A DNA stretch of 39,792 bases. It comes from a bacterium (lineage in GTDB: Bacteria; Vulcanimicrobiota; Vulcanimicrobiia; Vulcanimicrobiales; SCRA01). Of the stretch, positions 21,095 to 39,023 are shown piece by piece. The first letter of the stretch is position 1. Every line of letters starts with the position of its first letter. The notes beneath the pieces were generated by a model. That model searched no databases and was not told the DNA's origin. It saw only the letters and a program-made list of their open reading frames with translations. The stretch covers positions 1-39,792 of the forward strand of contig SCRA01000064.1 in NCBI GenBank assembly GCA_004297985.1, in the 5' to 3' direction. Made by a program: the position numbers and the translations under genes.

Positions 21095-22528
21095 GTGACA
21101 AGTGTGCGGAGTCTCTACTCGTCCCAGAAGCTTGCGTTGCGCTACTTCACCCTCTCGGTGGCGCTCTTCGGCGTGATGATCGTCTTCGGTCTCGTGGCGG
21201 CGACGCAGTACATCCACCCGAGCTTCCTCTTCCCGGCTCTGGCGTTCAACATGGTCAAGACCATGCACGTCGACGTGCTGATCCTCTGGCTGTTGACGGC
21301 ATTCTTCGGCTCGCTGTTCTGGCTCTTGCCTTCGGAGTTCAAGCGCGACCTCGTGGGCATGCGCGCCGCCAACGTCGTCTTCTGGCTGTTCTGCGCCACG
21401 ATCGCCGCGGTGGCGCTGACGTTCCTCTTCGTGCAGACCGGTCCGGGAACGGACAAGACGCTCTGGCTCATCAACCAAGGGCGCAAGTACGTCGAAGAGC
21501 CGCGCTGGGCGGCCGTCGTCGTGGCCATCGGCATCGCTGTCTTCGTCTACAACATCATCGGGACGGCCGTCGCCGCCAAGCGCGTCACCGGGATCACCGC
21601 GGTGATCATCCTCAACATGATCCCGCTCTTCGGACTGTACATGATCGCCTTTCCGGCCATGACCAACATGGCGCTCGATCAGTTCTGGTGGTGGTGGCTG
21701 GTGCACTTCTGGGTGGAGGCCACGTGGGAAGTCTTGATCGGCGCCATCGTGGCCCTGGTGCTGATGAGAGTCATGAACGCTTCGCGCAGCGTGGTGGAGA
21801 CCTGGCTCTACATCGAGGTCGCCTTGGTGCTGGCTACCGGCGTACTGGGCATCGGCCACCACTACTTTTGGATGGGCGCACCCAAGTACTGGCTGGGCAT
21901 CGGCGGGTTCTTCTCGGCGCTCGAGCCGCTGCCGCTCTTGGGTATGGTGATCCACGCCGTCTACGATGCCGGCGAGCACAAGATGAAGATGACCAACCAG
22001 CCCGCCTTCTACTGGACGATGCTCGAGGCATTCGGCAACTTCATCGGCGCCGGCGTCTGGGGCTTCATGATCACCCTGCCGCAGATCAACCTCTTCGCGC
22101 ACGGCACGCAGTGGACGGCCTCACATGGCCATCTCGCCTTCTGGGGCGCCTACGGCTGCGGCGTGATCTCGGTGATCTACCTGGCCGTTCAAGAGGCCGG
22201 AGGGCACGAGCAGATCGGCGGGCGGGCCTGGAAGTGGGCCTTCGGACTCCTCAACACCGGCATGTACGGCATGGGGGGCTCCCTCTTGATCGCCGGTATG
22301 GCGCAGGCATTCTACGAGCGAGCCATTGGAGGATCGACCTTCAACGCGTACGTGGCGGCGCAGCAGACGCCGTGGTTCCTCGAGGGCATCTGGATGCGCT
22401 GGGTGTTCGGCTTGATATTCACCGCCGGCTACGCCGTCCTCGCTGGCAACTTGATCGCCATCGCGCGGCGCAGCCGCGTGCCCGTCGCCGCCGGAACGCT
22501 GGCGGTCGAAGGCGCCGGGACTCGGTAG
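21095..22528 (+). CDS. norB: Nitric oxide reductase subunit B
   Basis: A 477-residue, about 12-helix heme-copper-superfamily subunit that reduces NO to N2O. Heme b ligands are H58 (MHVDVLILW) and H346 with H344 for heme b3 (SHGHLAFWG). FeB ligands are H204, H255 and H256 (HFWVEATWEV and GIGHHYFW), plus the NOR-specific E208; E277 in SALEPLPLL is also conserved. There is no fused quinol-oxidase domain, so this is a cNOR type working with NorC. The start is GTG at 21095 with AGGAG about nine bases upstream. Maturation genes norQ and norD are absent from the window. Confidence 0.95.
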   Translation: MTSVRSLYSSQKLALRYFTLSVALFGVMIVFGLVAATQYIHPSFLFPALAFNMVKTMHVDVLILWLLTAFFGSLFWLLPSEFKRDLVGMRAANVVFWLFCATIAAVALTFLFVQTGPGTDKTLWLINQGRKYVEEPRWAAVVVAIGIAVFVYNIIGTAVAAKRVTGITAVIILNMIPLFGLYMIAFPAMTNMALDQFWWWWLVHFWVEATWEVLIGAIVALVLMRVMNASRSVVETWLYIEVALVLATGVLGIGHHYFWMGAPKYWLGIGGFFSALEPLPLLGMVIHAVYDAGEHKMKMTNQPAFYWTMLEAFGNFIGAGVWGFMITLPQINLFAHGTQWTASHGHLAFWGAYGCGVISVIYLAVQEAGGHEQIGGRAWKWAFGLLNTGMYGMGGSLLIAGMAQAFYERAIGGSTFNAYVAAQQTPWFLEGIWMRWVFGLIFTAGYAVLAGNLIAIARRSRVPVAAGTLAVEGAGTR

Positions 22529-22837: not shown

Positions 22838-23220
22838 TCGCCAACGGGATCAACGTCATCCTCGGCATCTCGCTCGTCTACGTGGCCGTCCTGGACACGC
22901 CGCTCTTCGCGGGGCCGTCCTGGCGTGGGATCGCCGCGCTGGCGGCGCTCTGCTTCGTTGCTTTCGCGTTCACCGCGAGGCGTAGCGACTACGCGCCCTG
23001 GCACGCCATCCTGACGAGCTGGCTGGGTGCTCTCCTGGTCGCGGCCGTGGGGCTCTCGTTCATACCTGCGTGGCCCGTGGCGGCGTCGACTTGGATCTGC
23101 TTCTGGGCGGGCCTGCTGACGGCATTTCTCGCGCTGTGGGCGGCGCTCTACCGTCGTTCGGCGGCGCGCTACCGCGAGCAGCTCGCCGGCAATGGAGCCG
23201 CAGCGACGGAGTCGACGTAG
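22834..23220 (+). CDS. Four-helix membrane protein in the nor-heme operon
   Basis: A 128-residue protein with about four hydrophobic segments. It has a tryptophan-rich SDYAPWHAILTSWLGALLVA segment and a matching second W-x-CFWAGLLTAFLALWAA segment, suggesting a duplicated two-helix unit loosely like SPW-repeat proteins. The ATG overlaps the preceding stop (ATGA) and the stop shares one base with the GTG of hemE (TAGTG). The function is unknown. Its position between norB and hemE suggests a part in assembling the NO reductase or handling its heme, which is inference. Confidence 0.72.
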   Translation: MIANGINVILGISLVYVAVLDTPLFAGPSWRGIAALAALCFVAFAFTARRSDYAPWHAILTSWLGALLVAAVGLSFIPAWPVAASTWICFWAGLLTAFLALWAALYRRSAARYREQLAGNGAAATEST

Positions 23221-24296
23221 TGACACGTTCCGCGCAGTCGCAGCGGCCCGAAGCATCGCTTCCCCCCGCAGCCGAGCATCCATTCCTCCTCGCGTGCCGG
23301 CGCGAGGAGTCGCCGTTTACGCCCGTCTGGCTGATGCGCCAGGCCGGGCGTTATCTTCCCGAGTACCGCCGTGTGCGCGAGCGTCTCTCCTTTCTCGAGT
23401 TGTGCGGCCGCTCCGATCTGGCGGCCGAGGTCACGGTGACGGCGGCGGAGCGTTTAGGCGTCGACGCGGCGATCATCTTCGCCGACATTCTGCTTCCGCT
23501 GGTACCGATGGGCGTCGGGCTGCGCTACGAGAAGGGCGACGGACCGCGCATCGAGCAGCCGATTCGCATGGCCGCCGACGTCGATCGGCTGACGCCCGTG
23601 AGCGTCGAGGAGTCCCTTGCATTCGTAGCCGAGACGGTTCGCCTCTCGCGGGCTGGATTGAATGGGAAGGTTCCGCTGATCGGCTTCGCGGGGGCGCCGT
23701 TCACGGTGGCCTCGTATCTGATCGAGGGCGGATCCTCGCGCATGCACGTGACCACGAAAGTCTTGATGCAGCGCGATGCGCTGACCTGGCAGCGTCTGAT
23801 GGAGCGGATCGTCGACGTAACAGCCGACTACCTCAACATGCAGATCGCGGCGGGGGTCGACGCGGTCCAGCTCTTCGACAGTTGGGTAGGATGCCTCTCG
23901 CCGCGAGACTACCAGCGTCACGTCCTGCCGTACACGAAGCGGCTGATCTCGGCACTGCGCCCCGGGGTTCCGGTGATCCACTTCGGGACGATGACGGGGA
24001 GCCTGCTCGAATTGATGCGGGACGCCGGCGGAGATGTCGTCGGTCTGGATTGGCGCGTGGAGATCGACGAGGCGTGGCAACGCCTCGGGCCGGAAGTTGG
24101 CGTCCAGGGCAACCTCGATCCCGCGCTGCTCTTCGCCGACGCGGCGGAGATCCGCAGAGCCGTCCGCGAGATGTTGGCGCGCGCCGGCAGCCGTCCCGGC
24201 TACATCGCTAATCTTGGCCACGGCGTCTTACCGGAGACGCCCGTCGACAACGTGCTGGCTTTCGTCGATGCGGTGCATGAGTACGGCCGCCGGTGA
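23220..24296 (+). CDS. hemE: Uroporphyrinogen decarboxylase
   Basis: A 358-residue enzyme that decarboxylates four acetate arms of uroporphyrinogen III to give coproporphyrinogen III. FTPVWLMRQAGRYLPEYR is the N-terminal signature, with the invariant Arg and Asp-binding loop. GFAGAPFTVASYLIEGG, DAVQLFDSWVG and GNLDPALLFA are further family motifs. The start is GTG at 23220, overlapping the previous stop by one base; the frame is open upstream but reads through the neighbour. Length is normal. Confidence 0.95.
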   Translation: MTRSAQSQRPEASLPPAAEHPFLLACRREESPFTPVWLMRQAGRYLPEYRRVRERLSFLELCGRSDLAAEVTVTAAERLGVDAAIIFADILLPLVPMGVGLRYEKGDGPRIEQPIRMAADVDRLTPVSVEESLAFVAETVRLSRAGLNGKVPLIGFAGAPFTVASYLIEGGSSRMHVTTKVLMQRDALTWQRLMERIVDVTADYLNMQIAAGVDAVQLFDSWVGCLSPRDYQRHVLPYTKRLISALRPGVPVIHFGTMTGSLLELMRDAGGDVVGLDWRVEIDEAWQRLGPEVGVQGNLDPALLFADAAEIRRAVREMLARAGSRPGYIANLGHGVLPETPVDNVLAFVDAVHEYGRR

Positions 24297-24306
24297 GGAC
24301 CGTCCC

Positions 24307-25284
24307 ATGACGCACGCCACGCCGTTCGATGCCGTCGTCTTGATCGGCTTCGGCGGGCCGACGAGCCCAGAGGAGATTCGCCCCTTCCTGGATCGCGTGC
24401 TCGAAGGACGCCCCGTGCCCCGCGCGCGCTACGAGGACGTCGTCCGCCACTACGAGCGTATCGGTGGGCGCTCGCCGTTCAACGAGCTCACCCAGCGGCA
24501 GGCCGATGCGCTTGCCGGCGTCCTGCGCATCGAAGGCGTCGAGATTCCCGTACGGGTAGGGCTGCGCCACGCCGCGCCGTTCATCGAAGAGACGCTGCGC
24601 GATCTCGCCGCAGAAGGCGCGCGCCATCTCCTTGGCATCGTTTTGGCTGCGCACGAGAGTGAGGCCAGTTGGGAGCGCTACGTCGAGAGCGCGGAGGAGG
24701 CCAGACGGCGCATCGGTGCCGGCGCCCCCACGATGACCTACGCGCACCCGTCGTTCGATCACCCGCTGCTGGTGCGTGCGCATGCCCAGCGCGTGCGCGA
24801 GGCGCACGAGCGCATGCGGCGCGACACCTTCGCGGGTATGACCCTCATCTTCACGGCGCACAGCATCCCGCAGGCGATGGCCGATCGCGGGCCGTACGTT
24901 CGCGAGCTGGTGGGCACCGCTGCCCTGGTGGCTGAGGCGGTAGGCGCGCCGGACTGGCATCTGGCTTACCAAAGCCGCAGCGGCTCGCCCAGCGAGCGGT
25001 GGCTGGAGCCGGACGTCTGCCAAGTCTTGAGGCGTTTGCCGTCCGGCTCGGGGAGGCGCGAGGCCGTCGTCGCGCCGATCGGCTTCGTCTGCGATCATGT
25101 CGAGGTGCTCTACGATCTCGACGTCGAAGCGGCAGAGGTCGCCGCGACAGCGGGCGTACGCATGGAGCGCGCCCGCGCGCTCAACGACCACCCCGACTTC
25201 GTGGCGGTCTTAGCAGAACTCGTCACCGGCCGGCCGAAGGACGCCGGCGGTGCACACGATTCCATGGAGAGCCTATCTCGATGA
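24307..25284 (+). CDS. hemH: Ferrochelatase (coproporphyrin or protoporphyrin)
   Basis: A 325-residue cytoplasmic enzyme inserting Fe2+ into a porphyrin. The N-terminus VVLIGFGGPTSPEEIRPFL and the metal-binding H185 in IFTAHSIP are characteristic. AYQSRSGSPSERWLEPDV and PIGFVCDHVEVLYDLD, with the conserved Glu, also fit. It starts 10 bases after hemE and overlaps the radical SAM gene by ATGA. Whether it acts on coproporphyrin III or protoporphyrin IX is not certain. The absence of HemF, HemN or ChdC nearby and the AhbD-like neighbour make the coproporphyrin route plausible. Confidence 0.92.
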   Translation: MTHATPFDAVVLIGFGGPTSPEEIRPFLDRVLEGRPVPRARYEDVVRHYERIGGRSPFNELTQRQADALAGVLRIEGVEIPVRVGLRHAAPFIEETLRDLAAEGARHLLGIVLAAHESEASWERYVESAEEARRRIGAGAPTMTYAHPSFDHPLLVRAHAQRVREAHERMRRDTFAGMTLIFTAHSIPQAMADRGPYVRELVGTAALVAEAVGAPDWHLAYQSRSGSPSERWLEPDVCQVLRRLPSGSGRREAVVAPIGFVCDHVEVLYDLDVEAAEVAATAGVRMERARALNDHPDFVAVLAELVTGRPKDAGGAHDSMESLSR

Positions 25285-26444
25285 CTACCACGGCGGGCGC
25301 CGCCCCGCGAGAGATCCCCGAAGTCCGCCACCCTCGTCACGACGTAGGCGAGCGACCGTTCATCATCATCTGGGAGGTCACGCGCGCCTGCGACTTGGCG
25401 TGCCGCCACTGCCGCGCCGACGCGATTCCCCACCGCAACCCGCTGGAGCTCACGACGCCCGAGGCACGCGCGCTGATCGACGAGATCGCGGAATTCGGAA
25501 AGCCCTCGCCGATCTTCGTGCTGACCGGCGGCGATCCCATGAAGCGCAACGACATCGCGAAGCTGGTGGAGTACGGCACGTCGAAGGGCGTGCACATGGC
25601 GCTCTCGCCGTCGGCAACGCCGCTGGTCACCAGGGAACGCCTCGCGGAGCTCCACGACCTCGGCCTCAAGGCGCTCTCGCTCAGCATCGACGGCTCGACG
25701 CCCGAGATCCACGACCACTTCCGCGGCTTCTCCGGCGTCTTCGACCGCACGATCAAGCTGTGGGAGATCGCGCGCGAGATCGGTCTGCGGGTGCAGATCA
25801 ATACCACCGTGACGCGCCATAACGTCGAAGATCTGGCGGCGGTCGCGCAGCACCTGCGCAGCCATAGCGCGGCGCTGTGGAGCGTCTTCTTCCTGGTGCC
25901 AGTCGGGCGCGGGAGCGTGCTCGAGCCGATCACCGCGCAGGAGTCCGAGGACGTGATGAACTTCCTCTACGACGTGGGAACGATCTTGCCGGTGAAGACG
26001 ACGGAGGGACACCACTTCAAGCGCATCGTGCTCCAGCGCGGCGAGCTGGCCCGTCGCAAGGGGGCGTTGGCGTTGCCGGAGGCGGGACCGCTCTATCATC
26101 GTTTGCGCGCCGGGCTGGGAGAGTGGACGCCGGGGCCGCGCGAGCGGCGCAGCCCGATGGATGTCAACGCCGGCCGTGGCTTCGTCTTCATCTCGCACAA
26201 GGGCGAGATCTGTCCCAGCGGCTTCATGCCGATGAGCGCCGGCAACGTGCGCACCGATTCGCTGCGCACGGTCTACCGCGAAAGCGATCTCTTCGTCGGC
26301 CTGCGCGATCCCTCGCGCTTGAAGGGGCGTTGCGGACGCTGCGAGTTCGCCGCCGTCTGCGGCGGGTCACGCTCTCGTGCCTACGCGGTCACCGGTGACC
26401 CCTACGCGGAAGATCCGCTCTGTGCCTACGAGCCGCCGCAATGA
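25281..26444 (+). CDS. Radical SAM/SPASM enzyme of the AhbD/NirJ/TIGR04053-like group, in the heme operon
   Basis: A 387-residue iron-sulfur enzyme. The radical SAM cluster motif is C37-x3-C41-x2-C44 (RACDLACRHC), followed by a GGDP motif. The C-terminal SPASM-like region has GEICPSG, CGRCEFAAVC and a final Cys in DPLCAYEPP. GGSRSRAYAVTGD closely resembles the AhbD ending GGCRARAYA, but with Ser for one Cys. AhbD removes two carboxylates from iron-coproporphyrin III to make heme. The gene overlaps hemH and hemG by ATGA on both sides, supporting a role in late heme synthesis. TIGR04053 family members of unknown role are the main alternative. Confidence 0.82.
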   Translation: MTTTAGAAPREIPEVRHPRHDVGERPFIIIWEVTRACDLACRHCRADAIPHRNPLELTTPEARALIDEIAEFGKPSPIFVLTGGDPMKRNDIAKLVEYGTSKGVHMALSPSATPLVTRERLAELHDLGLKALSLSIDGSTPEIHDHFRGFSGVFDRTIKLWEIAREIGLRVQINTTVTRHNVEDLAAVAQHLRSHSAALWSVFFLVPVGRGSVLEPITAQESEDVMNFLYDVGTILPVKTTEGHHFKRIVLQRGELARRKGALALPEAGPLYHRLRAGLGEWTPGPRERRSPMDVNAGRGFVFISHKGEICPSGFMPMSAGNVRTDSLRTVYRESDLFVGLRDPSRLKGRCGRCEFAAVCGGSRSRAYAVTGDPYAEDPLCAYEPPQ

Positions 26445-27883
26445 GCGCGCGCAGCGTCCAACGGGTAGCGGTCATCGGCGGCGGCATCAGCGGCCTGGCG
26501 GCGGCCTACCGGCTGCGCGAGCTGGCCGTTGAACAGAGTCTCCCCGTAGAAGTGACGGTGCTCGAGCGCGCGCCGCGTGCCGGCGGCTGCGTGGAAACCT
26601 TACAACGTGACGGCTTCACGATGGAGACGGGCGCCGAGACGCTGCTGGCCGATAAGCCGGCGATCGTGAGCGTGCTGCGGCGGTTGGGTCTGGAGCACGA
26701 GCTCGCTCCCACGCGCCCGGAGTTCAAGGGTTCGCGCGTTCTGCGCAACGGTCGCCTGGTCCCGCTTCCGCCCGGCGTCATGCTGTTCGCTCCCAGCAGG
26801 CCTGCCGCGCTGGTGACCAGCGGCCTCTTCAGCCTGCGGGGCCTGGCGCGGATGGCGATGGAGCCCTTCGTGCCGGTGCGCCGTTCCTCGGAGGACGAGA
26901 GCCTAGCCTCGTTCGTGACCCGGCGCCTGGGGCGCGAGGTCCTCGAGCGCCTCGCGCAGCCGCTGATCGGCGGCATCTACTCCGCCGACCCGCAGCGGCT
27001 CAGCATGCAGGCTGCGCTGCCGCGCTTCGTGGAGCTCGAGCAGCGGTACGGAAGCCTCGTACGTGCGTTGACGAGCTCTGACCAAGCCCACCGTTCCGCG
27101 ACCCTGACGAGCGTGCGCGGCGGGCTCGGCACGATCGTCGATCGTTTCGTGCACGAGCTCTCCGGACGCGTGATCTTGAATCAAGGCGTGCTGGCGCTGC
27201 AGCGCCATTGCGATTCCAGTGGGACGCGCAGTTGGGTGCTGTCGCTGGCCGACGGCTCGACGCTCACGGCCGACGCGGTGATTTGCGCAACGCCGCTGCA
27301 CGAGGGGGCGCGCCTGTTGCGTACGGTGCAGCCGCACCTCTCCGAGCTGCTCGGTTCGATCGCCTACAACTCGATCGCCACCATCAATCTGGCCTTCGAC
27401 GAAGCCGCTGCGCGGCGGCTGCCGCGCAGCTACGGCCTGGTGGTGCCCTTCGTGGAGGGGCGGCGCATCACCGCGCTGACGATCGTCAGCCAGAAGTATG
27501 CCGACCGGGCGCCCCAGGGCAGCGTCTTGCTGCGCGTCTTCATCGGGGGCGCGCTGCAGGCGAATCTGCTCGATTTCGACGACCAGACGCTGGTGCGCGC
27601 CGCGCGCGACGAGATTCGCGATCTGTTGGGCATCTCGGCCAACCCGCTGCTGACCACGGTCCGGCGCTGGCCGCATCGCTTGCCGGAGTACGCCCTCGGC
27701 CACCGCGAGCGCATCGCCCAGATCGAGCGCGAAGCGAGCGCTCTGCCGTGCTTCGCGCTGGCGGGAGCGGCGCTCCAGGGCGTCGGCGTTCCCGATTGCG
27801 TCCAGAGCGGTGAGCGTGCCGCGGACTCCATGCTCGCGGCGCTCTTCCCCGCCGGCTCGGACGTGCACGTCAAAGCTTCGTAG
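26441..27883 (+). CDS. hemY: Protoporphyrinogen/coproporphyrinogen oxidase (HemY/CgoX type)
   Basis: A 480-residue FAD-dependent oxidase. VAVIGGGISGLAAAYRL binds FAD, and GGCVETLQRDGFTMETGAET and LIGGIYSADPQRLSMQAA are HemY/HemG family signatures. The C-terminal GHRERIAQIE plus FALAGAALQGVGVPDCVQSG closes the FAD site. HemY proteins oxidise protoporphyrinogen IX, or coproporphyrinogen III in the coproporphyrin-dependent route. The ATG overlaps the radical SAM stop (ATGA). It ends the eight-gene nor-heme run and overlaps the convergent GNAT gene by 14 bases. Confidence 0.92.
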   Translation: MSARSVQRVAVIGGGISGLAAAYRLRELAVEQSLPVEVTVLERAPRAGGCVETLQRDGFTMETGAETLLADKPAIVSVLRRLGLEHELAPTRPEFKGSRVLRNGRLVPLPPGVMLFAPSRPAALVTSGLFSLRGLARMAMEPFVPVRRSSEDESLASFVTRRLGREVLERLAQPLIGGIYSADPQRLSMQAALPRFVELEQRYGSLVRALTSSDQAHRSATLTSVRGGLGTIVDRFVHELSGRVILNQGVLALQRHCDSSGTRSWVLSLADGSTLTADAVICATPLHEGARLLRTVQPHLSELLGSIAYNSIATINLAFDEAAARRLPRSYGLVVPFVEGRRITALTIVSQKYADRAPQGSVLLRVFIGGALQANLLDFDDQTLVRAARDEIRDLLGISANPLLTTVRRWPHRLPEYALGHRERIAQIEREASALPCFALAGAALQGVGVPDCVQSGERAADSMLAALFPAGSDVHVKAS

Positions 27884-29619: not shown

Positions 29620-30741
29620 CTACGACGCGATGACCGGCGCCGCCTGATGCGTGCGATAGCGCTCGATGACGCGGGGATCGGGATCGTGCCCAAGGCCCGG
29701 ACCTTGCGGCACGGAGATGAGTCCGTCGACGGCGTCCGTCGCTTGCCCGTATGGGCTCGCCTCGAGGTCCATGTAGAGGCGTTCGAAGACCGTCTCGCTC
29801 GGAAGGGTCGCCGTGATGTGCAGCGTGGCCAGGAAGCCCGGGCCGAAGTACGCGCAATGCGGCACGACGGCGACATTGTGAGCCTCGGCGAGCGCCAGTA
29901 CCTTGCGGGTCTCGCTCACGCCTCCCACCTTCGTCACGCTCGGCTGTGCGATGTCGACGGCTCCGGCGTCGAACATGCGCTTGAACTCGCCCACCCATGA
30001 CGCGTTCTCTCCGGCGGCGATCTTCATCGGTGCCTGTGCGCGAAGGTCCGCGAGTGCGGCGAAGTCCTCGGGTGGAAAGAGCGGCTCCTCGAGCCACTCG
30101 AGGTCATACTGGGCGAGATGCTCGGACATCGTTCGCGCCTGCGCAGGTGTCCACGGGCAGTTCGTATCCAGCATGAGCGCCACGTCTGCGCCGGCGGCTT
30201 CGCGCCCCGACCTCACGTTCGGCTCGGCGATCTCGTGCAGTTTGATGGCGCGATAGCCGCGGTCGAGGGCATCAGCGACATTGCGCGCCACCAGGTGCGG
30301 ATCGCCGTAGCGCAGGAGGCTCGCGTATGCGGGTACGTGCGTGCGCCCCGCTCCACCCAACAGACGATAGAGCGGCAGACCGGCCTGTTTGCCGGCGATG
30401 TCCCAGAGCGCGATGTCGATGGCCGAGAGCCCGTACGGAACCAGCCCGCTTCGCCCGAAGAGGTGAAGGCTATGCTGGAGCGCGGCCATCAGCTCGCCGA
30501 TCTGGTCGGCCCCGCGACCGATGCACAGCGGGGCGATCATCGTATCGATGGTCGCCTTGAGAGCGTGACAGGCATTGTGGCCGAAAGGCTCGCCCCACCC
30601 GCTGATGCCGGCGTCGGTATCGACGCGGACGAGCAGCATCTGAAGCGACGTCCACGCGCTTCCGCCGACGAACGCGGTGGGCGGACCACCGTTCGTATAC
30701 GGGATGCTGAGGACGGTCGTCTCGATGCTCGTGATCTTCAT
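29620..30741 (-). CDS. Mandelate racemase/enolase-superfamily enzyme coupled to senB
   Basis: A 373-residue TIM-barrel enzyme that abstracts a proton next to a carboxylate. Metal ligands are D192 (LDTNCP), E218/E219 (LEEPLFP) and E245 (AAGENAS). The acid/base set looks like the mandelate racemase subgroup: K167-x-H169 (AIKLHE) on one side and the D263/H295 dyad (VDIAQP, VPHCAYFG) on the other. The substrate is probably a hydroxy or sugar acid, or an amino acid derivative. Its ATG overlaps the senB stop (ATGA), so the two are translationally coupled. The link to selenium metabolism is unproved; a role in sugar-acid catabolism is the alternative. Confidence 0.85.
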   Translation of the reverse strand: MKITSIETTVLSIPYTNGGPPTAFVGGSAWTSLQMLLVRVDTDAGISGWGEPFGHNACHALKATIDTMIAPLCIGRGADQIGELMAALQHSLHLFGRSGLVPYGLSAIDIALWDIAGKQAGLPLYRLLGGAGRTHVPAYASLLRYGDPHLVARNVADALDRGYRAIKLHEIAEPNVRSGREAAGADVALMLDTNCPWTPAQARTMSEHLAQYDLEWLEEPLFPPEDFAALADLRAQAPMKIAAGENASWVGEFKRMFDAGAVDIAQPSVTKVGGVSETRKVLALAEAHNVAVVPHCAYFGPGFLATLHITATLPSETVFERLYMDLEASPYGQATDAVDGLISVPQGPGLGHDPDPRVIERYRTHQAAPVIAS

Positions 30742-31706
30742 GTGGGAGCTTTTTGGTGTACCTCGGCGATGAGCCTCTGCCAGGCCTTGCGTTCCTGCGT
30801 GGGGCGCACCAGCGGCGCGAGGCGCCGGCACCAACGCCGCAGGCCGGCGTAGAACGCGCGGTCGCGCTCGGCGCGCTCGAGCAACTCCGCCAGGCCGCGC
30901 GTGTCGCCCGTAGGATAGAGACCCGGATAATCCGCCCCCAAGACGCCGCGCGTTCCCCCGATGTTGGAGCCCAGGATCGGCACGCCCGCCGCCAACGCCT
31001 CCGAGACGACGTTTGCGCCCCCCTCGCTGCGGGAGCTGACCACCAGCAGGCGGCATCCCGCCAAGAGGCGTTGCGCACGCGCATGGCTCACTTCACCCAA
31101 CCATTGATACCGGGGGTTGCGCGCCATCTCTCGGTGCGCGCGTTCCTCATAGCGCGGCTCGAGTGCGCGGCCGGCTTGCAGCACCTTGATGCGAGAGTCT
31201 TCCGGCATCAGCCGTGCCGCCATCGCGGCGCGAAAGGGATCCTTGACGGCCCGCAGATTGCCTAGGACCACCACGCGAAAGTCGCCGCTCGTGCTGAGCC
31301 GCGCCGCGCGCGGATGTGCGGTGGCCGACTGGATGATCGCGCGCGCCTTGCTGCGCAGGTGCGCGGGGAGCTCACGGATGCCTTCAGGCTGGAGGAGCAC
31401 CAGCCGCGTTGCCAGCTCGAGCGATCGGCGGGCCGCGGCGCTGCGCCCGATATCGTGATAGAGATCGGTTCCCGTGAGCGCGACGATGAGTGGACGCTCG
31501 GGATAGAGGCGGTGGAAGCGCGAGGCGGACGCGGCGCTGCGCCGTGCATGCAGGGCGATCAGCGCATCGCAGGGGCGTCCGTCGTACCGCTCCTGCAGGC
31601 GCACGCGGTGACCGAGCGAGCGCAGCAGGCGTGCCCAGCGTCGTGCCGTGACGGCGTTTCCGTTGACCGCTCCGGGGCGCGCCGGGGAGATGATGTCGAC
31701 GGTCAC
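30738..31706 (-). CDS. senB: Selenosugar synthase SenB (TIGR04348-type glycosyltransferase)
   Basis: A 322-residue GT-B glycosyltransferase. The N-terminus IISPARPGAVNGNAVTARRW, then LIALHARRSAASASRF, and IVALTGTDLYHDI are characteristic of SenB. SenB couples selenophosphate to a UDP-sugar to form a selenosugar, the selenium donor for selenoneine. The C-terminal donor site has the E-x7-E motif in SEGGANVVSEALAAGVP. The GTG at 31706 is chosen because it gives the family N-terminus; TTG at 31742 is an alternative. It diverges from senA across 57 bases. SenC, the selenophosphate synthetase partner, is not in the window. Confidence 0.86.
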   Translation of the reverse strand: MTVDIISPARPGAVNGNAVTARRWARLLRSLGHRVRLQERYDGRPCDALIALHARRSAASASRFHRLYPERPLIVALTGTDLYHDIGRSAAARRSLELATRLVLLQPEGIRELPAHLRSKARAIIQSATAHPRAARLSTSGDFRVVVLGNLRAVKDPFRAAMAARLMPEDSRIKVLQAGRALEPRYEERAHREMARNPRYQWLGEVSHARAQRLLAGCRLLVVSSRSEGGANVVSEALAAGVPILGSNIGGTRGVLGADYPGLYPTGDTRGLAELLERAERDRAFYAGLRRWCRRLAPLVRPTQERKAWQRLIAEVHQKAPT

Positions 31707-31740
31707 CGGGAGGGTGGCCTTGGTTTGGCGTGAATCATGC

Positions 31741-31759
31741 AAGACATAGGAGAAGTCTT
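31741..31759 (+). promoter_or_regulatory. Hairpin exposing the senA ribosome binding site
   Basis: In the divergent senB-senA gap, AAGAC (31741-31745) and GTCTT (31755-31759) are exact inverted repeats. The nine-base loop between them contains TAGGAGAA, the ribosome binding site of senA. Such a small hairpin could tune translation, but a five-base stem is weak. No clear -35/-10 pair was seen in this gap. Confidence 0.35.
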
Positions 31760-31763
31760 ACGT

Positions 31764-33074
31764 ATGCCGCAAGCGGTTGAATCTCCCGCCGTCGCCGTCG
31801 AGGCCCTCACCGATGCTCGCCTGCGCACGAACGCTCTGATCGAGGACTTGGCGGACGAGCTGTTGCGCGTGCCGCTCGTGGAGAACGTGAACCCGCTGCT
31901 GTGGGAGATCGGCCACATCGCGTGGTTCCAGGAATACTGGCTCCTGCGCCGGCTCCATGGGAAGGAGCCGCTCGATACGCGGACGGACAGTCTCTACGAT
32001 TCGGCGGCGGTGGCTCATGACACGCGCTGGACGCTGCCATTGCCCGATCGCTCTGGGACGCGGGCCTACATGGAGGAGACGCTCGCACGGGTTGTCGCCA
32101 TGCTGGAGCGCAGCCCGCACGCTCAGGGAACGCGATACTTCCGGATGCTGGCGACCTTCCACGAAGACATGCACGCCGAAGCGCTGCTCTACACGCGGCA
32201 GTTTCTCGGCTATCCCGCACCGCCGTTCGTCACGGCTGCGGCTGAAGAAGCGCCTGCGGGTGCGCTGGAAGAGAGCGACGCCGCCATCCCCGGCGGCCAC
32301 TTGATGCTAGGAGCGAACGCGGAAGACGGCTTCGCGTTCGACAACGAGAAGTGGGCGCACGCGGTATTCGTCGCGCCGTTTCGGATCGCGCGGACTCCCG
32401 TGACGAATGCGGCCTATGCGCGCTTTGTCTCCGAAGGCGGATACGCGCGCCGGGAGTTGTGGAGCGCGCAGGGATGGGCGTGGCGCTCCGAGCGTGGCGC
32501 GGAGCACCCCGCATACTGGCGGCGCGGCGAAGACGGAGGCTGGGAGCAGCGGCGCTTCGACCGTTGGATCGCGCTGCGCGGCGACGAGCCGGTGGTGCAC
32601 GTCTGTTGGCACGAGGCGCAGGCTTACTGCCGTTGGGCGGGGCGCCGCCTGCCCACGGAGGCGGAGTGGGAGTACGCCGCGTCGATGACTTCCGACGGAG
32701 AGAAGCTGCGCTACCCGTGGGGCAACGATGCCCCGACGCTGCTGCATGCCAACCTCGATCAAGCACGGGGCAACGTCGCCCCGGTGTGGGCGTACGGCGC
32801 GGGCGACAGCCCCTGGCGCTGCCGGCAGATGGCCGGCAACGTCTGGGAGTGGACGGCGGACCCGTTCGAGCCCTACGCGGGCTTCGTGGCGGACCCCTAC
32901 AAGGAGTACTCGCAGCCGTGGTTCGGCACGCACAAAGTGCTGCGCGGCGGCGCCTGGAGCACACGCGCGCGGCTCATTCGCAACACGTGGCGGAACTTCT
33001 ACATGCCGCACCGCACGGACGTCGCCGCCGGTTTTCGTACCTGCGCGCTCACCCCGGGCGAACGCGATAGATGA
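31764..33074 (+). CDS. senA: Selenoneine synthase SenA (EgtB-like)
   Basis: A 436-residue non-heme iron enzyme. The DinB-like N-terminal half has H51 (WEIGHIAWFQEYWLLR) and the H133-x3-H137-x-E139 motif (FHEDMHAEA), the iron site of EgtB-type sulfoxide synthases. The C-terminal half is a formylglycine-generating-enzyme-like domain (RIARTPVTNAAYARFV, PTEAEWEYA, MAGNVWEWT, LRGGAWSTRA). SenA joins a selenosugar to trimethylhistidine to build selenoneine. The assignment over EgtB rests mainly on the adjacent senB. The ATG at 31764 with AGGAG nine bases upstream is chosen over 31737. It overlaps the convergent lipoprotein gene by 26 bases. Confidence 0.82.
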   Translation: MPQAVESPAVAVEALTDARLRTNALIEDLADELLRVPLVENVNPLLWEIGHIAWFQEYWLLRRLHGKEPLDTRTDSLYDSAAVAHDTRWTLPLPDRSGTRAYMEETLARVVAMLERSPHAQGTRYFRMLATFHEDMHAEALLYTRQFLGYPAPPFVTAAAEEAPAGALEESDAAIPGGHLMLGANAEDGFAFDNEKWAHAVFVAPFRIARTPVTNAAYARFVSEGGYARRELWSAQGWAWRSERGAEHPAYWRRGEDGGWEQRRFDRWIALRGDEPVVHVCWHEAQAYCRWAGRRLPTEAEWEYAASMTSDGEKLRYPWGNDAPTLLHANLDQARGNVAPVWAYGAGDSPWRCRQMAGNVWEWTADPFEPYAGFVADPYKEYSQPWFGTHKVLRGGAWSTRARLIRNTWRNFYMPHRTDVAAGFRTCALTPGERDR

Positions 33075-34301: not shown

Positions 34302-35654
34302 CTAGGTGTCGAGGAGCAGGCGCGCCAGACTGGGCAGCGCCTCACCGTACGTGGGGTGAATATGAACGGAGCGCTCGAGGACGCGCCACGTGGAGTGGGC
34401 CTCCATGTGCGCGAGGACCACGTGAACCACCTCGGCGGCCTCGTATCCAACGAGTGTCGCTCCGAGGATGCGATCGGTCTTGGCTTCGACGACGAGGCGA
34501 TAGAAGCCCAGGTCGTGACCCCACTCGATGGCCCGTGCGACGTGAGATACGGGAAGATCGACCGATCGCGCATCCAAGCCGCTGCGCTTGGCATCCTCGA
34601 TCGTCATGCCCACGCGGCCGACTTGCGGCTCCGTGTACACGGCGTAGCCCAGGACGCGGTCGTCACGCCTGCGGTCACCGCCGGAGAGAATGGCTTTGAG
34701 CCGGCGATAGTCCTCCCAGGAGACGTGCGTGAACGCCGGCTGTCCGGCGACGTCCGCGATCGCGTAGACGCCTTGTGCGCTGGTTCGAAACCGTTCGTCG
34801 ATCGCCACCATCCCGCGCGCATCGAGCGTGACGCCGGCGGCCTTCGCATTGAGCGCCGCAGTGTTAGGGCTCCGTCCTACGGCGACGAGGAGCGCTTCGC
34901 CGCACAGCTCGCTATGATCATCGAGCGCGAGCGTGAAGAGGCCGCCGTCGTAGGCGACGTGCGTGACGTCGCGACCCAGGTGGAGTTGAACGCCATCGCG
35001 CGCGAGCGACGTCTGAAGCACCGCGGAAACGTCGGCCTCCTCGCGGGCGAGAACGCGGGCGTTGTGGTCGATGATGTGGACGGTGCTTCCCAGGCGCGCC
35101 AGGCCCTGCCCGAGCTCGAGGCCTACGTAGCCGCCGCCGAGCACGAGCGTGCGGCGCGGCAGCTCTTCCAGCTCGAAGAAGTTCTCGTTGGTGAGGAACG
35201 GCGTCCCGGCAAGTCCGGGGATCGGCGGAACGGCGGCGCTCGTTCCGGTGTTGATCACGACGGTCGCGCCTTGTACGGCGGCGCCGTCCGCGGAGATCGT
35301 GCGCTCGCCGGTAAATTCGGCGCCGGCCCGCACGACGTTGACGCCCGCACGCGTCAAACGCTTCTCGACGCCGTTGGTGAACGAGTCGCGCACGGAGCGT
35401 ACGCGAGCCATCACGGCGGGAAAGTCCACGCGGATCTCGGCGTGGATGCCCAGCGGTGCCGCGGCACGCGCGCGTCCGGCAACGTGCGCGGCGCCAAGAA
35501 ACGCCTTCGAGGGCGTGCATCCGTAGTTGACGCAGGAGCCGCCCAGGCGCCCGCGTTCGAAGAGCGTCACCCGCTTTCCATCGCGTGAGAGGTCGACCGC
35601 GAGCGGCACTCCGCCCTGTCCACTTCCCAGGATGACGGCATCGGCTTGATCCAT
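34302..35654 (-). CDS. FAD-dependent pyridine nucleotide-disulfide oxidoreductase (mercuric reductase/lipoamide dehydrogenase-like)
   Basis: A 450-residue flavoenzyme. The FAD motif AVILGSGQGGVPLA is followed by the redox disulfide C41-x4-C46 (GGSCVNYGCTPSK). VLGGGYVGLELGQGLARLG binds NAD(P)H, and VHIHPTYGE is the C-terminal catalytic His-Glu region. There is no N-terminal heavy-metal domain and no C-terminal Cys pair, so a true MerA role is unlikely. Its substrate might be a low-molecular-weight disulfide or selenenyl compound, given the selenium genes nearby, but this is speculation. The ATG at 35654 has GAGG eight bases before it; a GTG three codons upstream is possible. Confidence 0.85.
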   Translation of the reverse strand: MDQADAVILGSGQGGVPLAVDLSRDGKRVTLFERGRLGGSCVNYGCTPSKAFLGAAHVAGRARAAAPLGIHAEIRVDFPAVMARVRSVRDSFTNGVEKRLTRAGVNVVRAGAEFTGERTISADGAAVQGATVVINTGTSAAVPPIPGLAGTPFLTNENFFELEELPRRTLVLGGGYVGLELGQGLARLGSTVHIIDHNARVLAREEADVSAVLQTSLARDGVQLHLGRDVTHVAYDGGLFTLALDDHSELCGEALLVAVGRSPNTAALNAKAAGVTLDARGMVAIDERFRTSAQGVYAIADVAGQPAFTHVSWEDYRRLKAILSGGDRRRDDRVLGYAVYTEPQVGRVGMTIEDAKRSGLDARSVDLPVSHVARAIEWGHDLGFYRLVVEAKTDRILGATLVGYEAAEVVHVVLAHMEAHSTWRVLERSVHIHPTYGEALPSLARLLLDT

Positions 35655-35694
35655 GAGGTACACCTCGTCCGCTCGATAGGCGCTACGGCCTTGG

Positions 35695-36944: not shown

Positions 36945-36973
36945 TTGCTCGGGCCGGATCGCGATGCTATAAT
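36945..36973 (+). promoter_or_regulatory. Sigma70-like promoter for the amidohydrolase gene
   Basis: TTGCTC (36945-36950) and a perfect TATAAT (36968-36973) are 17 bases apart. Transcription would begin near 36980, leaving a leader of about 49 bases before the ATG at 37029. This is the best promoter match in the window. A GAGCA...TGCTC inverted repeat (about 36923-36950) overlaps the -35 and could be an operator. Confidence 0.6.
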
Positions 36974-37028
36974 ACGGCAACCGAATATGAACTATATCAT
37001 CCGAGTAACGGACGAGAAAGCGCCGTGT

Positions 37029-38222
37029 ATGAACGTGCTGTTTCGCGACGCGCTGCTGTGGGATGGGGTCGGCTCCGAAGCGCGTCCCCACATGGACGTA
37101 CTTGTCGAGAACGGCAAGATCGCTGCCGTCCGGGCGACGGGGGGCGCCTCGCGTCCGGGCGAGACGCAGGTTGTGGATCTTCAGGGCGCATGCCTCTTGC
37201 CGGGCCTGATCGACATGCACGTGCACTTGATCTGGAGCGGATCGGCGGATCCCGTCTCCGTCGTGGACGCGGAAGGCGAGCAGCTCACGACGGTGCGCGC
37301 GGTGGCCAACGCCCAGACGCAACTGCGCAGCGGCGTCACGACGGTGCGGGATGTGGGCAGCAACTGGGACATCGCCATCGCCGTCTCCCGTGCGATCTCC
37401 CGCGGGCACATCGCTGGGCCGCGTGTCGTGGCTTCCGGGCGCACGATCATCATGACGGGCGGGCACGATCCCTTTTGGGGCATCCCCTGCGATGGACCCG
37501 ATGCCGTCTTGCGGGGCGTGCGGACTCAGATCTACGGCGGGGCCGGGGTGATCAAAGTCGCGGCGACGGGAGGTGTCTACGGCCGCCCGGAGGGTGAGGA
37601 GATCGGGCAGAGCGAGTTGAGCTACGAGGAGTTGGCCGTCGCCGCCGGTGAGGCGCATCGCTTCGGGCTCCGAGTTGCCGCTCACGCGCTCGGCACACGG
37701 GGCATCGCGGATGCCGTCCATGCGGGTGTCGACACGATCGAGCACGGAATCTTTCTCTCCGAGGAGATCGTGGCGGAGATGAAGCGGAAAGGCACGGCCT
37801 TGACGCCCACGCTCCTCATCTATCGCACGATCGCCGAAGGGAGCCGCGCCGGGATCCCCGCCTACGCCGTGGAGAAGGCGAAGAAGGCGGTCAAGGCCCA
37901 TCGTGAGAGCTTCGAGATGGCCATGGAAGCGGGCATTCCCATCGTGGCCGGAACCGATGCGGGCTCGTGCAACGCGCCCCACCCGTCGTTGATCGCGGAG
38001 TTGCGCGCGCTCCACGAATATGGAATGCCGCGCGATGTCGCGCTTCGTGCCGCCACGAGCACGGCGGCGGCGGCCCTTGGAAAAGCCGCTGAGTTCGGGA
38101 CGATCGAGCCCGGAAAATCCGCGGACGTGCTGGTCGTGGACGGCAATCCCCTGGAGCGGCTCGACGATCTCGAGCGGGTGCGCTGCGTGATGTGCGCCGG
38201 ACGGTTCTTCGTCGGGCCCTGA
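37029..38222 (+). CDS. Metal-dependent amidohydrolase (prolidase/imidazolonepropionase-like)
   Basis: A 397-residue amidohydrolase-superfamily enzyme. Metal-binding motifs are H64-x-H66 (IDMHVHL), the Lys in GVIKVAATGG, the His residues of AAHALG and IEHGIF, and the Asp of GTDAGS. LPGLIDMHVH and EPGKSADVLVVDGNPLE are family signatures. Xaa-Pro or N-acyl amino acid hydrolysis is known for close groups; the substrate here is unknown. The ATG at 37029 follows GAGAAAG; the frame is open 28 codons upstream but those lie within or before the promoter leader. It diverges from the tartrate dehydratase-like gene and converges on the selenoprotein gene with a 27-base gap. Confidence 0.87.
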   Translation: MNVLFRDALLWDGVGSEARPHMDVLVENGKIAAVRATGGASRPGETQVVDLQGACLLPGLIDMHVHLIWSGSADPVSVVDAEGEQLTTVRAVANAQTQLRSGVTTVRDVGSNWDIAIAVSRAISRGHIAGPRVVASGRTIIMTGGHDPFWGIPCDGPDAVLRGVRTQIYGGAGVIKVAATGGVYGRPEGEEIGQSELSYEELAVAAGEAHRFGLRVAAHALGTRGIADAVHAGVDTIEHGIFLSEEIVAEMKRKGTALTPTLLIYRTIAEGSRAGIPAYAVEKAKKAVKAHRESFEMAMEAGIPIVAGTDAGSCNAPHPSLIAELRALHEYGMPRDVALRAATSTAAAALGKAAEFGTIEPGKSADVLVVDGNPLERLDDLERVRCVMCAGRFFVGP

Positions 38223-38249: not shown

Positions 38250-39023
38250 CTAAGCGGGCAATGTTCGCTGCTCGGGATCGAAGGTTGCCTTGACGGGCTC
38301 CTCTGCTTGCCGCAAGAGGTCCATCGCGCTCGCCACGACGGCGCGGTGGACCTCACGCGCGCCGGCCGGGCCCATAGGGGCGTCTGCGTACGGAGTGATG
38401 AGCGCTCGCGGTACGTCCACGAGCGAGGAACGCATCGTACCGATGATGACGGTTGGGATGCCGGCTGACTCCAAGGCTCTGGCGACCAAACTGGCCGTAT
38501 AGTGGCACATGTTTCAGATCGGTACGAGCAGCGCGGCATCCGGCTTGTCAACCGAAACCTGCTTGACGATCTGCGGAATCGTCGCTTCGATGAAGGTTGG
38601 CCAGTCCAGGAGAAAGCCGCTCCAGCTCACGATGCGCGGTGAGAGTTGCACGCCGCACGCCGTGATCGCTTCCCGTGGGAGCACGCTTTCGAGGTCGCTT
38701 CGCGCCGCCGCCTGATTGAAGTGTTCGTGCGCGAAGTCGATGGCGTCGTTGCGCACCCACGTATCGAGGATACGATGCGTCGCGTCTCCGATGATCGATG
38801 ACGCGCTGAACGGGGCATGGACGTGGACGTCATACGCCCCCGAGGTGGTGAGCACGCTGACCGAACGGGGATCCACGGGCTTCGCGAACGGGACCTGCTG
38901 CAAAGGCAGGGGCATCGGCATCGTGGGCATCACTGCGCGAAAATCGGGGGGATCCTTGCTGAGCGCTTCGAGGGCTTCGGGCAGCCATGCCGCCCAACGC
39001 TTCCGATATGGATTGGCCTTCAT
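38250..39023 (-). CDS. Probable selenoprotein, GrdB/PrdB (glycine/betaine/proline reductase B) family, in-frame UGA as Sec
   Basis: The reading frame runs from ATG 39023 to UGA at 38514-38516 and continues in the same frame for 87 more codons to a stop at 38250. Read through, it gives 257 residues with the segment AALLVPI-U-NMCHYTASLVARA. U170 and C173 thus form a UxxC redox motif. This is the position where D-proline reductase and glycine reductase B proteins carry Sec (or Cys in CxxC homologues), followed by the family sequence ESAGIPTVIIGTMR. The N-terminal part VSVLTTSGAYDVHVHAPFSA also fits the family. A hairpin just after the UGA is a candidate SECIS. The reductase substrate is unknown. 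A nonsense mutation is the alternative. Confidence 0.82.
38483..38516 (-). promoter_or_regulatory. Candidate bacterial SECIS hairpin after the Sec UGA
   Basis: On the minus strand, CGGCCA and TGGTCG (38483-38497 overall) form a six-base stem with one G-U pair and a three-base GTT loop. The loop begins 22 bases after the UGA codon (38514-38516). A weaker lower stem could form with CTATA and flanking bases. Bacterial SECIS elements are hairpins a short distance after the UGA with a G in the apical loop. Sequence and distance fit, but it was not folded by program. Confidence 0.5.

Follow-up and report, generated by a model that had tools for sequence, protein, structure and literature searches.

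On the minus strand of a 39,792-nucleotide stretch of contig SCRA01000064.1 (the window), from a bacterium of the phylum Vulcanimicrobiota, lies a gene that almost certainly encodes a genuine selenoprotein, with UGA codon 170 read as selenocysteine (Sec). As judged from its sequence, the product belongs to the GrdB/PrdB superfamily but is neither a true PrdB nor a GrdB. The coordinates of this gene and of the other features discussed are given in Table 1.

Table 1. Features of the window
Feature	Position	Strand	Remarks
Selenoprotein gene, GrdB/PrdB-like, 257 aa	38250..39023	minus	ATG at 39023, TAG at 38250
In-frame UGA, probable selenocysteine residue 170, U-N-M-C-H motif	38514..38516	minus	column kept as U or C
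Putative SECIS apical hairpin, CGGCC-AGUUU-GGUCG	38483..38497	minus	16-30 nt past the UGA, G at loop position 2
Convergent amidohydrolase adjoining the selenoprotein gene	36945..38222	plus	sole neighbor common to all three congeners compared
SenB, selenosugar synthase	30738-31742	minus	389 bits, NCBIfam cut-off 300
SenA, selenoneine synthase	31737-33074	plus	515 bits, NCBIfam cut-off 420

Reading frame and conservation of the UGA codon

The frame contains a single internal TGA, at codon 170 in the context LVPI-U-NMCHYTASL, and the resolving Cys is residue 173. The first-pass annotation had described homology on both sides of this codon, and similarity to PrdB under TIGR04483, covering residues 43-240, indeed spans the TGA. 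It had also expected gene callers to split the gene. The mechanical list of open reading frames does so, giving an 86-residue ORF (38250-38510) and a separate upstream ORF that stops at the TGA; ordinary annotation would thus cut the selenoprotein gene in two. Relatives in other genomes align through the TGA along their full length and keep the start ATG, with N termini such as MKANPYRKRW, MQGNPYRTRW, and MIRNEYRERW.

The family was found in 21 of 101 genomes, including the host, by protein search and in 22 of the 149 genomes of the phylum by profile search. At identities down to about 25%, every match that covers the motif has TGA in this column, with the exception of two Cys forms (G094:C37:49261-49845, which reads FCPACH, and G130:C77:62832-63467, in which no stop occurs). 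These two forms come from one genus in which selA is still present, and genome G094 also retains a Sec form. The host genome itself encodes three paralogues, each with the UGA: the window gene, a copy on contig C57 (G000:C57:26422-27165; 45% identity to the window gene), and a copy on contig C21 (G000:C21:5388-6008; 30% identity). When 29 proteins are aligned, the UGA column has Sec in 26 rows, among them the annotated PrdB proteins of Peptoclostridium acidaminophilum and Ligilactobacillus salivarius (both AGUGTCHR), and Cys in 3, among them the alphaproteobacterial homologues from Haematobacter and Roseomonas. The earlier description of a GrdB/PrdB-like protein with a redox UxxC motif holds.

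Between congeners, dN/dS is 0.12 to 0.14 before the UGA and 0.13 to 0.19 after it; because the same kind of purifying selection acts on both parts, the segment after the UGA must be translated. An AlphaFold model built with 24 relatives continues through the UGA as a single, confidently predicted fold (mean pLDDT 92.3, pTM 0.91). Alternatively, the TGA could be a base error introduced by sequencing or assembly, or a true stop in a gene on its way to becoming a pseudogene, with the downstream part left untranslated. The presence of just one in-frame stop, in an assembly that resembles a metagenome, would be compatible with this, and a few relatives do carry gene remnants, apparently decaying copies, that have lost the middle of the gene together with the Sec site (G077:C9:2821-3241 and G082:C228:1013-1465). 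We regard such an error or pseudogene as extremely improbable: the conserved column, shared with about 20 other genomes and with the two further host paralogues, and the purifying selection downstream already refute it, and the Sec machinery of the host is complete.

It is just as hard to credit that the UGA is decoded as another residue, such as Trp, or that the locus yields two separate polypeptides. An internal ATG two codons past the UGA would open the 86-residue downstream ORF, but this start is not conserved: Leu, Val, or Ile takes the place of the Met in several relatives (LCH, VCH, or ICH). The residue aligned with the UGA is Cys or Sec and never Trp, and TGA is a normal stop here, because SenA, SenB, ferrochelatase, and other recognizable genes of the window end in it.

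Selenocysteine machinery and a putative SECIS hairpin

The host genome (3.19 Mb, 96% complete) encodes all four components of the Sec machinery. These are a tRNA-Sec (selC; 71.7 bits, above the gathering score, anticodon tca), selA (552.6 bits), selB (303.6 bits over the whole frame), and selD (G000:C7:42767-43690; 380.6 bits). Contig C72 carries selA and selB side by side, with the tRNA-Sec gene about 8 kb from selB. The selD gene, on contig C7, is itself a selenoprotein gene, with its own in-frame UGA in SSCAGUASKVG. The first-pass annotation had named the absence of selB and selC, together with either read coverage showing an error at the TGA or an unconserved column, as evidence that would count against Sec; instead, the host has the machinery, and many separately assembled genomes keep the column.

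Across the phylum, selA scores above the cut-off in 121 of 149 genomes. It is present in all 22 genomes with the family, and the family occurs in none of the 28 genomes without selA (hypergeometric P = 0.007, computed ignoring relatedness). Genus g18, with at least eight genomes, appears to lack selA. With selA this widespread, the phylum is a good place for studying selenium use and the exchange of Sec and Cys.

A SECIS element likely follows the UGA, as suggested by the sequence pattern of the coding region itself. In the window clade, nearly all members share ACGGCC-(A/G)GU(C/U)U-GGUCG, which would form a 5-bp stem, extended to 7 to 10 bp in several relatives. Codons +6 to +10 after the UGA (ACG GCC RGT YTG GTC) rank first among 148 five-codon windows for excess synonymous codon identity; the top-ranking window of the PrdB-like clade is codons +5 to +9, first among 142. 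When the stretch +1 to +11, chosen a priori, was put to a cruder synonymous test, the outcome was borderline (p = 0.06 and 0.08). At minimum energy, the 54 nt of the window itself adopt a fold other than the hairpin, and the hairpin energy beats a synonymous-codon null at p < 0.05 in only 5 of 24 sequences. Covariation is uninformative because the core stem pairs hardly vary, and the synonymous freezing is a more telling test of the hairpin than either covariation or per-sequence folding energy. Taken together, the machinery, the conserved column, the dN/dS values, the frozen codons, and the AlphaFold model rule out a sequencing error, a pseudogene, and a true stop. In the decoding step that we propose, SelB with Sec-tRNA(Sec) would decode codon 170, helped by the hairpin lying about 16 nt downstream within the coding sequence.

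Relationship to PrdB, GrdB, and environmental selenoproteins

TIGR04483 (PrdB) is the best-matching family for the window protein, with similarity on both sides of the TGA (E = 1.6e-14, 54 bits) that does not reach the cut-off of 300. A Pfam search returned no family at E ≤ 1, PF07355 (GRDB) included, and similarity to a GrdB profile is weak and lies around the Sec (E about 0.09). The protein thus escapes recognition by Pfam, which gives no match, and by NCBIfam, where it falls short of the cut-off. GrdB (PF07355) shares the UxxC motif; it is a protein of about 430 residues that needs GrdA and GrdC. A search of the host genome for GrdA, run without a positive control, found none. Neither the single protein nor the alignment found a meaningful match in PDB sequence searches, and a fold search of the PDB with the model gave no match at E ≤ 0.001.

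Could the window gene nevertheless encode a genuine PrdB that partners PrdA in a D-proline reductase? Besides the best family match, the two proteins have Sec in the same column, in a UxxC motif followed by His (UGTCH in annotated PrdB), and positions D110, P116, T191, and P205-R206 of the PrdB family are kept in the window protein. Identity, however, is only about 26%, and PrdB lacks the N-terminal segment of about 40 residues (YRxxWAxWLPxAL) that is peculiar to the window clade. The tree separates annotated PrdB from the window gene, whose clade comprises 15 rows and has 100/99 support; on the PrdB side lies the C21 paralogue, which resembles PrdB far more closely (TIGR04483 score 182 bits). 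The deep branches are weakly supported. No PrdA was found in the 96% complete host genome by a search that did match the positive control plasmid, and the genome has no prd operon. The absence of PrdA, the low profile score (54 bits, cut-off 300), and the separate clade all argue that the window protein is not a D-proline reductase, and we give the PrdA-dependent reading very little credence.

Stand-alone PrdB-like selenoproteins have been recorded repeatedly in environmental data. In the Sargasso Sea, 42 PrdB-type selenoprotein genes with UxxC were among the most abundant selenoprotein genes (PMC1088965, 2005), and the Global Ocean Sampling data held 235 PrdB selenoprotein genes with UxxC, again among the most abundant, and 110 Cys homologues (PMC2398784, 2008). 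In a 2026 review, the D-proline reductase family appears under TIGR04483, with the motif UxxC (PMC13188914). Like the window gene, the ocean proteins named proline reductase PrdB are, by their published description, environmental and PrdB-like, with Sec in UxxC and with Cys homologues; the ocean set comes mainly from marine plankton. Further homologues with Cys in place of Sec and without an adjoining reductase operon are listed by NCBI as glycine/sarcosine/betaine reductase selenoprotein B family proteins (Haematobacter WP_035710215.1 and Roseomonas WP_207415257.1). These have NCPxCH where the window family has xUxxCH; they differ in having a longer C terminus, Cys instead of Sec, and a different phylum of origin. 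In the literature collection searched, no paper joins Eremiobacterota with selenocysteine.

Of the first-pass proposal of a new selenoprotein, the selenoprotein part holds but the word new says too much, the environmental PrdB family having already been described in the 2005 and 2008 studies. The window gene is a newly recognized member of this known environmental family and may represent a subfamily of its own. It adds a well-conserved Sec clade to the stand-alone PrdB-like selenoproteins, which recur in environmental data.

Proposed function and genomic neighborhood

Sec170-Asn-Met-Cys173-His would form the reactive center of the 257-residue protein. By analogy with PrdB, the selenolate may attack the substrate and Cys173 may resolve the resulting selenenyl-sulfide, after which a cellular thiol system would re-reduce the protein; all of this would proceed without the pyruvoyl subunit PrdA. 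The most likely role of the protein is that of a stand-alone selenol- or thiol-dependent reductase of a small molecule, in our estimate an even bet, and the substrate step is conjecture. More tentatively, and with the balance slightly against it, the window-type clade may be a selenoprotein subfamily not yet described, whose selenol-dependent reductase activity would be new and would need no PrdA. It would be used, along with two paralogues, by members of a mostly selenium-using phylum, at least one of which also has selenoneine genes.

Comparison of the neighborhood across relatives and paralogues revealed no conserved functional or operon partner. The convergent amidohydrolase is probably not functionally linked to the selenoprotein gene. 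In genus g13, a PF01883 protein and an unknown 420-residue protein lie immediately upstream of the family gene; the C21 paralogue is flanked by genes for glutamyl-tRNA synthetase, GlmU, and a GGDEF protein, and the C57 paralogue by an aminotransferase gene.

The window also contains the selenoneine genes that the first-pass annotation had reported, both scoring above their NCBIfam cut-offs (Table 1). SenA and SenB are divergently arranged, and the true start of SenB is probably further in, because the start as shown overlaps SenA by a few bases. We considered a link between the selenoprotein gene and selenoneine biosynthesis and dropped it: SenA and SenB lie about 5 kb away, with other genes in between. 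Between SenA and the selenoprotein gene is a gene for an FAD-dependent disulfide oxidoreductase resembling mercuric reductase or dihydrolipoyl dehydrogenase (34302-35663, minus strand), which is conceivable as an electron donor.

Elsewhere in the window, genes of the uroporphyrinogen decarboxylase, ferrochelatase, radical SAM, and flavin amine oxidase types (23070-27883, plus strand) probably form a heme synthesis cluster, and a COX1-like oxidase gene (21095-22528) adjoins it.
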